Of a stretch of 64,000 nucleotides of DNA, positions 48,951-54,256 are shown one piece after another. Both the position numbers and the translations under genes were made by a program. Position 1 is the stretch's first letter. Each line of letters opens with the position of its first letter. The DNA is from Halobellus sp. MBLA0158 (GTDB taxonomy: Archaea; Halobacteriota; Halobacteria; Halobacteriales; Haloferacaceae): assembly GCF_041477585.1 (NCBI RefSeq), contig NZ_JBGNYA010000001.1:1550001-1614000 (forward strand). The letters run 5' to 3'. The notes under the pieces are model-generated. The model was not told the origin of the DNA and made no database searches. It saw nothing but the letters and a program-made list of their open reading frames with translations.

Positions 48951-49970
48951 ATGGCGACGATACGCGTCGAGGGGCTCAGGAAGACCTACGGCGATTTCCC
49001 GGCCGTGGTGGGCAGCGACTTCACCGTCGAGGGCGGCGAGATCTTCGGCATTGTCGGGCCGAACGGCGCCGGCAAGACCACGACGCTGAAGATGCTCGCG
49101 GGCCTCGTCGAGCCCTCCGGTGGAACCGCCGAGGTCGCCGGCTACGACGCCGGCGACCCGGAGATGCGGCGGAACCTCGGCTTCCTGCCCGAGGAGTCGC
49201 CCCTCTATGAGGATATGACGCCCCGGTCGTACCTCCAGTTCTTCGCGGACCTCTACGACGTCCCGCGCGAGGCCGCGCGCGAGCGGACCGAGTCGACGCT
49301 CGACCGGCTGGAGCTAGAGCACCGCGAGCGGCGGCTCGGCGATATGTCGAAGGGGATGAAGCGCAAGGTCGCGATCGCGCGCTCGCTCGTCAACGATCCC
49401 GACCTCTTGATCTACGACGAGCCGGCCTCGGGGCTGGACCCGCTGACGACGAACTACGTGCTCGAATTCACCCGCGAGCTCGCCGACCGCGGCAAGACCG
49501 TCGTGTTCAGCGCCCACAACCTCTATCACGTCGAGAGCGTCTGCGACAGAATCGTGATTATGAACCGCGGCGAAATCATCGCCCGCGGGACCGTCCCGGA
49601 GATCCGCGAGGCCTACGGGACCACCCGGTACCACGTCTTCACCACCGTCCCCGTCGCGGGCGCCGACCGCGACGAGCGCGCCGAAGGCGAGCGTTACCGC
49701 GCGGTCGTCGACGATATGGACGCCGTCGAGGAGGTCCGCGAGCGCGCGGCCGCCGCGGGCGGCGAGGTCGTCGACATCCGGACGCGCGAGCAGAGCCTCG
49801 AAGACATCTTCCTCGACCTCGCCGCGGAGACGCCACCCGAGGCCGCCGCGGGGCGCGGACGCGGACCCGCCGAACGCGACGCCGAAGCGGCCGAACCCCG
49901 CGGCGCGTCGACTGGGTCCGTTGCGGGAACGGGAGAAGAACGCGAGCGCAGCGGAGGAGGAACGCGGTGA
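48951..49970 (+). CDS. ABC-2 exporter ATP-binding protein
   Basis: 339 residues. Walker A GPNGAGKTT is near residue 38, the signature MSKGMKRKVAIARSL near 135 and Walker B LLIYDEPASGLDP near 155. After the ATPase domain (about 240) comes a DUF4162-like end and a disordered Gly/Ala/Glu tail. It powers the two permeases that follow, with starts that overlap (4 bp and then 8 bp), so the three genes form one coupled operon. It is likely to move a peptide, lipid or drug; substrate unknown. Confidence 0.9.
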   Translation: MATIRVEGLRKTYGDFPAVVGSDFTVEGGEIFGIVGPNGAGKTTTLKMLAGLVEPSGGTAEVAGYDAGDPEMRRNLGFLPEESPLYEDMTPRSYLQFFADLYDVPREAARERTESTLDRLELEHRERRLGDMSKGMKRKVAIARSLVNDPDLLIYDEPASGLDPLTTNYVLEFTRELADRGKTVVFSAHNLYHVESVCDRIVIMNRGEIIARGTVPEIREAYGTTRYHVFTTVPVAGADRDERAEGERYRAVVDDMDAVEEVRERAAAAGGEVVDIRTREQSLEDIFLDLAAETPPEAAAGRGRGPAERDAEAAEPRGASTGSVAGTGEERERSGGGTR

Positions 49971-51781
49971 GGCGTTCGCTCCGTGATCACCTCTCGGCCG
50001 TCGGGCGGATCGCCCGCTGGGAGGTCGAGCGCTCCGCGGGCGTCCTCGACCGGCGGACGGCGATCCTCACCGTCGTCGCGCTCCTGCTCGCGGGCACCGT
50101 CGTCGGCGCCGGCGTCCTCGCGGGCGGCGTCGCACTCGACCGCGACATCTACCGCGTCGGCGTCGCCGAGGACAGTCCCTACCGCGCGCCCGTCGAGCGC
50201 AGCGTGGCGCTGGAGGCGCGTCCGCCCGACCCCGAGGCGCTCCGCGGCGGCGATCTTGAGGTGCTCATCGGCGACGACAGCGTCCGGATCGCCGACACGC
50301 CGAAGGGCCGCGCCGCGCTGTCGGAGTTCCGCTCGGCGGTGCGGTCCCACAACGTCGGCCTGATGCAGTCCCAGGAGAACGGCTCTGCGGCCTTTCCCGT
50401 CGTGGTCGTCCTCCAGTACGTCTCCCGCTCGTCCGGCCTCCCCGAGGGCGCGACGGTCGACGACGGCGACGGTAGCGGAGGCGGAGGCGCCGGAAGCGGA
50501 TCGGGCGGTGACGGGTCCGGCGGCGCCGCGGACGGCGGGGCCGACGAGGCGGACTCGGACGGCGACGCCGGATCGAGCGGCCCGCTCGGCGTGCCCGCGC
50601 TCGGCGGCATCAATCCGCTCGGGACCGACACGTCCGGATCCCCCGCGGAGATCAGCCCGCCGTTCCCCTTCGGCTCGCTCGTGCTCGCCTTCGCCTTCCT
50701 GGTCCCGATGAACTTCGTCGTCCAGGCCTACGGGAGCACGATGCTCAACGAGCGGATCAACCGTCGCGGCGAACTGCTCCTCGTGGCGCCGGTCTCGCCC
50801 GGCGACATCGTGGCCGGGAAGACGCTGCCGTACCTGGGCGCGATGGTCGCCCTGACTGCGCTCGTCGCGCTCGGCGTCGGCGGCAGCCTCGTCTCCGTCG
50901 CCGCGGTGCTGCCGATCGCGCTCGTGTTCCTGGCGGCGACGTTCGCGGGCGCGATGTTCGCGCGGTCGTTCAAGGAGCTCACCTTCGTCACGGTCACCGT
51001 CTCGGTGTTCCTGACCGCCTACACGTTCGTCCCGGCCATCTTCGCGAACGTGACGCCGATCGCGCTCATCTCTCCGCTCACCATCGTCGTACGCGACCTC
51101 CAGCCCTTCCAGTCTGTGACGCCCGGGGCGTTCCTCTTCGCGACGGCACCGTTCGCGCTCTGTGCCGGGATCCTGTTCCTGCTCGGGATCGGGATCTACC
51201 GCGAGGAGGACCTCTTCACGCAGCGCGCGGTCCCGCTGAAACTGCTGGACGCCCTCGACGCGCGGGTGTCGCGCCCGCGGGACGTCGCCGTCGTCTCGGG
51301 GCTGTCGATCCCGTTCGTCTTCGTCGCCGAACTGCTCGCGGTCGCGGTGCTGTTTGCGCTCCCGGTGTCGATCACGATCCCGGTCGTCCTCGTCGTCGTC
51401 GCGCTCGTCGAGGAAGTCGCAAAGAGCCTCCATATCTTCGCGGCGTTCGAGAGCGGGCGCTTCGACCGGACGCGACGCGTCGCGCTCGGCCTCGGGGCGC
51501 TCTCGGGCCTGGGCTTTTTCGTCGGCGAGAAGTTCACCGCCGTCGCGCAGGTGGTCGGGCTGCCCGAGATCGCGCTGGGGCAGGCCGCGTTCGCGACGAG
51601 CGGGATCGGCGTCTTCTCGGCGCTCGGGCTGCTCTTCGCGCCGCTCGTGCTCCACGTCGTCACCGCGGGCCTCACCGCGCTCGGCGCGCGGCGCGACCTG
51701 CGGTGGTACGCGGTCGCCTTCGTCGGCAGCGTGCTGCTTCACACGGCCTACAACCTCACGGTGGTGAGTCGCTTTGGCTGA
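49967..51781 (+). CDS. ABC-2 permease fused to PrsW-like intramembrane protease domain
   Basis: 604 residues from a GTG. The first 400 or so residues are an ABC-2 permease. It has a helix at about 30-55, a long outside loop with a Gly/Ser/Asp run (165-205), then about six helices. The rest is a second helical bundle with the marks of PrsW glutamic proteases: Glu482-Glu483-x-x-Lys486 (EEVAK), GLGFFVGEKF near 515, and His592...Asn596 (HTAYN). PrsW enzymes cut membrane-bound regulators within the bilayer. Fusion to an exporter subunit suggests processing of the exported substrate or of the complex itself. It overlaps both neighbouring genes. Confidence 0.82.
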   Translation: MRRSLRDHLSAVGRIARWEVERSAGVLDRRTAILTVVALLLAGTVVGAGVLAGGVALDRDIYRVGVAEDSPYRAPVERSVALEARPPDPEALRGGDLEVLIGDDSVRIADTPKGRAALSEFRSAVRSHNVGLMQSQENGSAAFPVVVVLQYVSRSSGLPEGATVDDGDGSGGGGAGSGSGGDGSGGAADGGADEADSDGDAGSSGPLGVPALGGINPLGTDTSGSPAEISPPFPFGSLVLAFAFLVPMNFVVQAYGSTMLNERINRRGELLLVAPVSPGDIVAGKTLPYLGAMVALTALVALGVGGSLVSVAAVLPIALVFLAATFAGAMFARSFKELTFVTVTVSVFLTAYTFVPAIFANVTPIALISPLTIVVRDLQPFQSVTPGAFLFATAPFALCAGILFLLGIGIYREEDLFTQRAVPLKLLDALDARVSRPRDVAVVSGLSIPFVFVAELLAVAVLFALPVSITIPVVLVVVALVEEVAKSLHIFAAFESGRFDRTRRVALGLGALSGLGFFVGEKFTAVAQVVGLPEIALGQAAFATSGIGVFSALGLLFAPLVLHVVTAGLTALGARRDLRWYAVAFVGSVLLHTAYNLTVVSRFG

Positions 51782-52838
51782 GCGCGACCCCCGCTTCACG
51801 ATCGCGCGCCGCGAACTGGGGAGCCTGCGGAAGGAGAAGACGATCGTCCTCGCGCTCGCCCTTCAGTTGTTCATCGCGGCGTTCTCCTCGTTCCTGGTCG
51901 TCGGGCTCGTGTCGCTGTACGACCCCGGTCAGGTCGAGGGCGCCGAGGTCGACGTCGCGGTCACCGGCGACGCCGCCGAGGACCTGATCCGCGCCTCCCG
52001 GGAGGTCCGCGGGGTCGACGCGCAGTACTACCGCTCCGAGGAGACGGCGCTGCGTGCCTTCCACGAGTACGAGGCGACCGGCGTCGACGCGGTGTTGGTA
52101 GCGGAGACGCGCGACGAGCGGGTGTTCGTCAGGGCGGTCGCGCCCGACGGCAACGTCCAGACGACGATCGTCGTCGTCCAGTTACGCGACGTGCTGCGCT
52201 CCTTCGAGCGGCTGGAGCGCACCCAGCGCGCGGCGTACCTCGACTCCCTGCCGCTGGAGCTGCCGCCGGAGGCCTCGTCGAGCCCGTACTTCGGCTTCAC
52301 CTACACCGTGCTCCTGCCGCTCCTGCTCTTCCTGCCGGTGTTCATCTCGGGGTCGATCGCGGTCGACGCGCTGACAGAAGAGATCGACCGCGGCACGCTG
52401 GAACTGCTCCGGGTGGCGCCCGTCTCGCTGACCGACGTCGTCGACGGGAAGCTGCTCGCGGCGGCCGGGCTGGCGCCGGTCCAGGCCGCGCTGTGGGTCC
52501 TCCTCCTGGAACTCAACGGGACGAGCGTCTCCGCGATCCCGGCGCTGATCGCGCTGGTGGCCGCGCTGGCGCTGCTCGTCTGTTCGGTCGGCGCGGCGAC
52601 GGCGCTGCTCGCGCCCGAGCGCCGGAGCGCGCAGTTCCTCTACTCGATCGGCGTCCTGCTCGTCTTTGGCGGGACCGCGGTGTTCCCGAACGGGCCGATC
52701 AACGCCGCCGCGCGGCTCGCCATTGGGAGCGGCGGCACGGTCGAGTACGTCGCGGTCGGAGCGATCGGCCTCGTCGCGGTCGTCGCCTACGGTGGCCTCC
52801 GGCGGCTCGTCGGACGCGTCGACGCCGACGCGCTCTGA
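51774..52838 (+). CDS. ABC-2 transporter permease
   Basis: 354 residues beginning at a TTG that overlaps the previous gene by 8 bp; no later Met fits as well. It has one N-terminal helix (about 20-43), a large extracytoplasmic domain (to about 165), then five or six helices, the NatB-like ABC-2 layout. The motif EIDRGTLELLRVAPVSLTDVVDGK is the coupling region and parallels RINRRGELLLVAPVSPGDIVAGK in the first permease. The two permeases should form a heterodimer driven by the ATPase at 48951. Confidence 0.85.
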   Translation: MAERDPRFTIARRELGSLRKEKTIVLALALQLFIAAFSSFLVVGLVSLYDPGQVEGAEVDVAVTGDAAEDLIRASREVRGVDAQYYRSEETALRAFHEYEATGVDAVLVAETRDERVFVRAVAPDGNVQTTIVVVQLRDVLRSFERLERTQRAAYLDSLPLELPPEASSSPYFGFTYTVLLPLLLFLPVFISGSIAVDALTEEIDRGTLELLRVAPVSLTDVVDGKLLAAAGLAPVQAALWVLLLELNGTSVSAIPALIALVAALALLVCSVGAATALLAPERRSAQFLYSIGVLLVFGGTAVFPNGPINAAARLAIGSGGTVEYVAVGAIGLVAVVAYGGLRRLVGRVDADAL

Positions 52839-53238: not shown

Positions 53239-53667
53239 TCAGTCCGCGAGCCGCGCGTGTTCGACTTTCATACACTTGTCCTGGACGAAGTCCAGCCCGG
53301 CCTCGGCGGCCCGCTCGCCCGCCTCGTCGTTCGTGATCCCGAGCTGGAGCCAGACCGCCGAGACGTCGCCGACGCTCTCGTGGCGCTCGATGGCGGCGTC
53401 GACGATGTCGCCGGTCTCCTCGCTCGGGCGGAACACGTCCACGGTGTCGATCTCGATCGACTCGGGCACGTCCGCCAGGGAGTCGTAGGCGGTCTCGCCG
53501 AGGATTTCGTCGGCGAAGGGGTTGACCGGGACGACCTCGTAGCCGTGCCGTTGCAGGTACGCCGGGATGTCGTGGGCGGCCTTGCCGGCGGTGGTCGAAC
53601 AGCCGACCACCGCGACCGTCTCGCCGTCCAGGATCGATCGGAGTCCGTCGTCGTCGGTGACGAGCAT
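53239..53667 (-). CDS. CoA-binding domain protein
   Basis: 142 residues, a single Rossmann-like CoA-binding domain. Key parts are VAVVGCSTTAGKAAHDIPAYL and a C-terminal Cys in DFVQDKCMKVEH. The same fold forms the N-terminus of succinyl-CoA and ADP-forming synthetases. Stand-alone members (YccU type) bind CoA and may regulate or store it. It ends 27 bp from the DUF5798-like gene in convergent orientation. Confidence 0.88.
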   Translation of the reverse strand: MLVTDDDGLRSILDGETVAVVGCSTTAGKAAHDIPAYLQRHGYEVVPVNPFADEILGETAYDSLADVPESIEIDTVDVFRPSEETGDIVDAAIERHESVGDVSAVWLQLGITNDEAGERAAEAGLDFVQDKCMKVEHARLAD

Positions 53668-53848
53668 ACGTAAACGGACGTGCGGGGAACGTAAAATACT
53701 GCCGTGGATGGGCGACGCGCCTCGGCGATCCCGACGAAATTGGTACGGAGTTTGTACGCAGTCGGGGGAGATTCGAGCGGAATCCGGTCCGGAGTCCGAT
53801 CCGACCTTGAAAAACGTACTTTCCCCTGTCGCGTCTCCGTCCGCCCGG

Positions 53849-54256
53849 ATGATGGACCCCGACCTCTCACGACGGCGGATGCTGAGCGCCGCAGGCGCGG
53901 CCGCGGTCGCCGCGCTCGCCGGCTGCTCGGGCGGCTCCGGCGGACAGACACCCGACGACGAGACGACAGAAGCGTCGATGAGCGGCGAGACGGCCGAAGA
54001 CTCGATGGGGACGGAGACCGATACCGAGACGATGAACGATTCGATGGGGACCGAGTCGATGGACGATTCGATGACGACTGAATCGATGGACGATTCGATG
54101 ACGACTGAATCGATGGACGACTCGATGGGGACCGAATCAATGGACGATTCGATGTCGACTGAATCGATGGACGACTCGATGACGATGCAATCGACGAACG
54201 AGTCGATGGAGACCGAGACGTCGAACGAGTCCACGAGCACCGAGATGTCGGGGTGA
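53849..54256 (+). CDS. Tat lipoprotein with nine-residue repeats
   Basis: 135 residues. A Tat signal (RRRMLSAAG, Arg8-Arg10) with a lipobox ending in Cys (ALAGC, about residue 26) is followed by a mature part made almost only of Asp, Glu, Ser, Thr and Met. Five tandem TESMDDSMx repeats lie at residues 68-112. The mature chain is probably disordered, acidic and Met-rich, displayed outside the membrane. It ends 3 bp before the molybdoenzyme gene, so the two are likely cotranscribed. Metal (copper) binding or methionine-based redox buffering is possible but unproven. Confidence 0.78.
   Translation: MMDPDLSRRRMLSAAGAAAVAALAGCSGGSGGQTPDDETTEASMSGETAEDSMGTETDTETMNDSMGTESMDDSMTTESMDDSMTTESMDDSMGTESMDDSMSTESMDDSMTMQSTNESMETETSNESTSTEMSG
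54050..54184 (+). repeat. Five 27-bp tandem repeats inside the lipoprotein gene
   Basis: Five consecutive 27-bp units each encode TESMDDSM plus one variable residue (T, T, G, S, T). The units differ mostly at single synonymous or near-synonymous positions. Copy number may vary between strains. Confidence 0.85.

Follow-up and report, generated by a model that had tools for sequence, protein, structure and literature searches.

In the window, a stretch of 64,000 nucleotides of the Halobellus sp. MBLA0158 genome, we found a gene that joins an ABC-2 permease to a PrsW-like half in a single polypeptide. Judged by sequence comparison, its C-terminal ~170 residues are PrsW-like and the match exceeds chance. 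Together with an ATPase and a second permease the gene forms a three-gene unit that is inseparable, the two halves of the fusion being of joint descent and the age of the unit being phylum-wide. We suggest that the three genes encode a heterodimeric ABC-2 exporter, one permease of which carries an active glutamic intramembrane protease of the PrsW type, and that the complex would cleave and then export membrane-embedded peptides. This explanation, taken as a whole, is tentative, and we place it a little short of an even chance.

An earlier note on this DNA, made from the letters alone, had described the ORF as an ABC-2 permease fused to PrsW within an exporter operon. The ORF is a real gene for 604 aa lying exactly where the note had put it (Table 1), PF13367 falls on its C-terminal half with a profile alignment to genuine PrsW proteins in register, and an ATPase and a second ABC-2 permease flank it with overlapping frames. 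The start of the fusion overlaps the ATPase stop by 4 bp and its end overlaps the start of the second permease by 8 bp. Since overlaps of a few bases are a usual sign of cotranscription, we regard the three genes as a single transcription unit.

Table 1. Coordinates of the fusion gene, its parts and its operon partners, as positions in the window
Feature	Position	Strand	Evidence or remarks
ABC exporter ATPase (DrrA/NatA-like), operon gene 1	48951..49970	+	PF00005 E 7.4e-29, PF13732 E 5.6e-7
ABC-2 permease / PrsW fusion, 604 aa	49967..51781	+	GTG start; one open frame
Permease half: elbow helix, TM1, acidic low-complexity ectodomain (~residues 52-234), TM2-TM6	49967..51250	+	AlphaFold2 helices
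PrsW half, five membrane helices, residues 437-603	51275..51775	+	PF13367 at 51308-51769; hhalign
Motif 1, E482-E483-V-A-K486 (EExxK), helix 467-495	51410..51424	+	invariant
Motif 2, F517-F-V-G-E521-K522 (within GLGFFVGEK, 514-522), helix 503-530	51515..51532	+	E521, K522 invariant
Motif 3, H563, the extra PrsW histidine, helix 549-576	51653..51655	+	invariant
Motif 4, H592-T-A-Y-N596, last core helix	51740..51754	+	H592, N596 invariant
Second ABC-2 permease, 354 aa, without protease half	51774..52838	+	PF12698 E 3.3e-14

The N-terminal half matches PF12698 (ABC2_membrane_3) at residues 236-385 with an E-value of 3.9e-4 and 20.1 bits, below the Pfam cut-off of 31.6. AlphaFold2 predicts for this half a six-helix layout with an elbow helix and an ectodomain, and Foldseek returned weak matches to a mycobacterial efflux pump and to the ABCH and NosFY permeases. 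The weak PF12698 match, the structure, the operon context and the conservation are together the reason for assigning it as a permease. Within the ectodomain, a stretch rich in Gly, Ser and Asp (50440-50650, forward strand, residues 144-223) is of low complexity and predicted to be disordered, and its length varies among orthologues.

For the C-terminal half, a PF13367 (PrsW) search of the genome itself gave 21.3 bits where the cut-off is 23.5, while several close orthologues exceed the cut-off (23.6-33 bits) and 25 of 44 members of the fusion family are matched, with a best E-value of 7.6e-10. In hhalign comparisons with 29 stand-alone haloarchaeal PrsW proteins, the E-value was 2.3e-7 with all four motifs in register, and it reached 9.6e-9 against haloarchaeal PrsW once non-halobacterial fusion sequences were added. 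The genome also encodes a separate canonical PrsW, whose FAVIEN and GHVIY segments align with motif 2 and H563 of the fusion; its last motif is HATYN, and haloarchaeal PrsW proteins carry HxxYN. EEVAK (482-486), GLGFFVGE and HTAYN (592-596), the three PrsW motifs listed in the earlier note, are all present and its numbering of Glu482/Glu483 is correct, but the motifs are four and H563 had been missed.

This histidine bears on family identity. PrsW proteins are described as bearing EExxK in TMH3 and HxxxD in TMH6, with a TMH5 histidine not found in type II CAAX proteases (PMC4602095). Because of the EExxK form and the extra histidine H563, we assign this half to PrsW rather than to CPBP. A CPBP/Rce1 (PF02517) identity was considered and rejected: the sequence reads EEVAKS and not EExxxR, the fusion is absent from the 11 places found by a PF02517 search of its own genome, and the hhalign match to the CPBPs of the genome (E 0.011) covers 46 columns only and not the full length.

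The AlphaFold2 model of the whole protein runs from the elbow helix and TM1 through the ectodomain, with its disordered low-complexity stretch, to TM2-TM6 and the five helices of the PrsW half, the core of which has a pLDDT of 95-98. The charges obey the positive-inside rule and the PrsW loops alternate as expected. Structure prediction had been proposed beforehand as a check, with Glu and His residues lying far apart or outside the membrane as the refuting outcome. This outcome did not appear in the model, where E482/E483, E521, H563 and H592 are all placed inside confident predicted TM helices at a similar depth, ~13-24 Å from the outer end by helix-end arithmetic. Against the PDB, Foldseek gave nothing below E 0.001 for either half, and sequence searches with profiles of both halves gave no matches. 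For the PrsW half, the insignificant fold matches are headed by a multipass translocon chain and include an APH-1B chain at rank 32. The superfamily counts among its relatives both APH-1 and TMEM147, a component of that translocon.

We surveyed 242 Halobacteria genomes and searched the rest of the phylum Halobacteriota. The PrsW half (E < 1e-30) was found in 177 Halobacteria and the permease half in 178, not counting a fragment and three marginal hits; the same 177 genomes carry both. The two sets differ by a single genome, G091 (L138:2070-4096), where one out-of-frame deletion from about residue 395 of the fusion to about residue 52 of the second permease removed the PrsW half and the start of that permease. 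Only remnants of the ATPase, fusion and permease are left in G183, and the permease-only genes of these two genomes are thus apparent, being in reality a deletion and a remnant. In G139 the reading passes through three frames, as frameshifts would leave it, and a long gene in locus L067 turned out to be a run of N. No intact exporter devoid of the protease half was found among the 242 Halobacteria. About 65 of them have no intact system, which makes it dispensable within the clade, and one genome of the same genus as the window (G014) lacks it wholly.

Outside Halobacteria, full-length fusions are found in many further families of the phylum, with frames of ~520-640 aa or more throughout. As 12 of the 19 sampled non-halobacterial carriers have methyl-coenzyme M reductase, most of these carriers belong to the methanogens or are related to them. 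A search of plasmids gave one haloarchaeal hit. The permease and PrsW parts are correlated in their pairwise distances (r = 0.92), and Halobacteria stay together in the trees of both halves, the support being modest (0.83 and 0.47). As far as the sequences tell, this pattern is consistent with a single ancient fusion passed on whole while selection maintained an active site.

The three genes also stay together. In haloarchaea, where 80 loci were compared, the ATPase adjoins the fusion in 77 and the second permease does so in 79; in non-halobacterial loci, the fusion and the second permease are together in all 20 and the ATPase is present in 18. In these latter loci (L142-L158) the ATPase is mostly divergent from the fusion-permease pair; Halobacteria, in contrast, have it as gene 1 of the operon that also contains this pair. 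Halorussus salinisoli has an additional copy of the fusion standing alone (L023:4995-6929), with intact motifs and neither ATPase nor second permease alongside; a rhomboid-like membrane protein lies near it on the opposite strand and a transposase-like ORF downstream.

Beyond these three genes, no gene was conserved when the neighbors of the window were followed through the 80 haloarchaeal loci and the neighbors in the 20 non-halobacterial loci were compared all against all. The same comparisons revealed no conserved substrate gene, in agreement with the earlier observation that none is adjacent. Other recurrent neighbor clusters in the non-halobacterial loci could be put down to regional synteny or to shadow frames. 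As a partner, the coiled-coil protein of 107 aa (DUF5798) suggested in the earlier note does not hold up, being linked to the fusion in 19 of the 80 loci, mostly in relatives that share a wider gene order. Downstream of the operon, at 53567-54256 (forward strand), we observed an ORF predicted to be lipoprotein-like, in which an acidic repeat (SMDDSMTTE...) occurs in tandem and whose opposite strand is also open.

These neighborhoods weigh on two other explanations. The ABC half could sense an envelope insult or a ligand and switch on the PrsW half for the site-1 cut of a membrane-anchored regulator, a role that we regard as rather unlikely. To our knowledge, archaea have no sigma/anti-sigma pairs, no regulator gene is conserved beside the operon in the 80 haloarchaeal and 20 other loci, and the genome already has its separate canonical PrsW. 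Such sensing would suit the large, variable and acidic ectodomain, and site-1 cleavage of an anti-sigma factor, RsiW in Bacillus, is the known role of PrsW (PMC4602095). Alternatively, the fusion could process and export a single peptide whose gene lies at another place in the genome (a pheromone, a bacteriocin-like or a lipoprotein-derived peptide), as the union of protease and exporter in one polypeptide might suggest. However, dedicated exporters usually adjoin their own substrate gene, and here no substrate neighbor is conserved in any of the loci compared. The phylum-wide vertical conservation of the fusion is also a poor match for a specialised product. Even though CAAX/CPBP relatives have been proposed to act in bacteriocin maturation (PMC9263693), such a dedicated role seems improbable to us.

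The catalytic motifs are the most conserved part of the PrsW half. In all 80 haloarchaeal rows, E482, E483, K486, G510, F517, F518, E521, K522, H563, H592 and Y595 are unchanged. Among 25 divergent sequences, only E482, E483, K486, E521, K522, P559, H563, H592 and N596 are invariant in this half, so that residues of the catalytic motifs are nearly its sole invariant ones. Identity in the PrsW half between the window and the non-halobacterial members is 25-38%, and the mean distance within Halobacteria is 0.45 for this half against 0.30 for the membrane part of the permease. From this pattern, the PrsW half is likely an active protease, as predicted from its sequence.

A point against a protease is that some relatives of PrsW, APH-1 among them, serve roles other than proteolysis. 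The fold could, like APH-1 in gamma-secretase, only lend stability to the exporter, as might be supposed from this structural branch of the superfamily and from the APH-1B chain among the insignificant PDB matches. The invariance of the active site, both glutamates included, in a half that otherwise drifts faster than the membrane part of the permease disfavours such a scaffold, to which we give a low probability. Self-regulation, in which the tethered PrsW domain would trim the exporter or its partner permease by self-cleavage or remove misassembled exporter, is the least probable explanation; of its forms, self-cleavage had been proposed in the earlier note. The residues that link the two halves (411-436) are predicted to lie in the cytosol and not to form a membrane segment.

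The cleavage of membrane peptides coupled to their export is the explanation that we prefer. The PrsW domain would cut membrane-embedded peptides within the bilayer, either remnants of leader or signal peptides or other single-span segments, after which the exporter joined to it would use the ATPase to clear the freed hydrophobic fragment out of the membrane or the cell. A single polypeptide may thereby perform what the separate Eep/RseP and EcsAB/PptAB do in Firmicutes, in a role that would be housekeeping rather than dedicated. We infer the catalytic activity, the peptide substrates, the coupling of cleavage to export and the housekeeping role of the fusion. A general substrate or role is favoured because the three core genes are conserved across the phylum with no dedicated substrate gene. 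This absence, the fusion of both activities and the phylum-long retention make a general cleave-and-export machine the simplest reading. In Staphylococcus aureus, both Eep and EcsAB are required to process and export lipoprotein-leader peptides (PMC7157817), and for Streptococcus thermophilus a direct hand-over from Eep to PptAB has been proposed (PMC7564271). The precedent is functional and not homologous, since Eep is a zinc site-2 protease, and serves here as an analogy.

One RefSeq record that we examined names the fusion "ABC transporter permease subunit", and no description of a permease-PrsW fusion was found in the open-access literature searched. It is conceivable, though we would not call it probable, that an ancient archaeal machine which cuts in the bilayer and exports through the same polypeptide, for the general clearance of leader remnants or for the secretion of peptide signals, occurs in the majority of Halobacteria, in many methanogens and in further Halobacteriota and has gone unrecognised because of its annotation as a permease. 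If this is true, it would offer a candidate general function for archaeal intramembrane proteolysis and possibly an archaeal route of peptide secretion. In Firmicutes, protease and ABC exporter act sequentially on leader peptides, with direct hand-over only suggested; here both activities would reside on one phylum-wide polypeptide with an untouched active site, so that single point mutations would suffice to test their coupling in a haloarchaeon amenable to genetics. The fusion is notable for its age, its invariance and this testability.

Among known systems, the fusion shares with the PrsW family (PF13367; MEROPS M82; the B. subtilis and the stand-alone haloarchaeal proteins) four motifs in the same order on consecutive membrane helices, EExxK instead of EExxxR, the second histidine, and HxxYN as in the PrsW of its own genome. 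It differs by its place behind an ABC-2 permease, by the weak Pfam score, by a last motif ending in Asn where HxxxD has been described, and by five helices against about eight, a number that is typical and not defining of PrsW ("most representatives bear eight"; PMC3482391). Exporters of the DrrAB/NatAB type and NosFY resemble the operon in having ABC-2 permeases (PF12698) and an ATPase, that of the window being nearest to the DrrA model; NosFY and ABCH are also among the weak structural matches of its permease half. The DrrAB/NatAB-type and NosFY systems have no protease domain. Eep/RseP (RasP) with EcsAB/PptAB would share with the proposed role an intramembrane protease and an ABC exporter that jointly serve small hydrophobic peptides, although they are separate proteins with a zinc site-2 protease, and the likeness drawn here between EcsB or PptB and the permease of the fusion is one of function. 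The closest counterpart by name and model length is NCBIfam NF041647 (ABC permease subunit/CPBP protease), of ~600 aa and with the permease in front, followed as in the fusion by a glutamic intramembrane protease of the same superfamily. Its protease is CPBP and not PrsW, and our fusion, at 8.9 bits against a cut-off of 435, is not a member, so the two are probably separate fusion events. The union of an ABC permease with an intramembrane protease was therefore already known, and the PrsW version is a novel variant of it.
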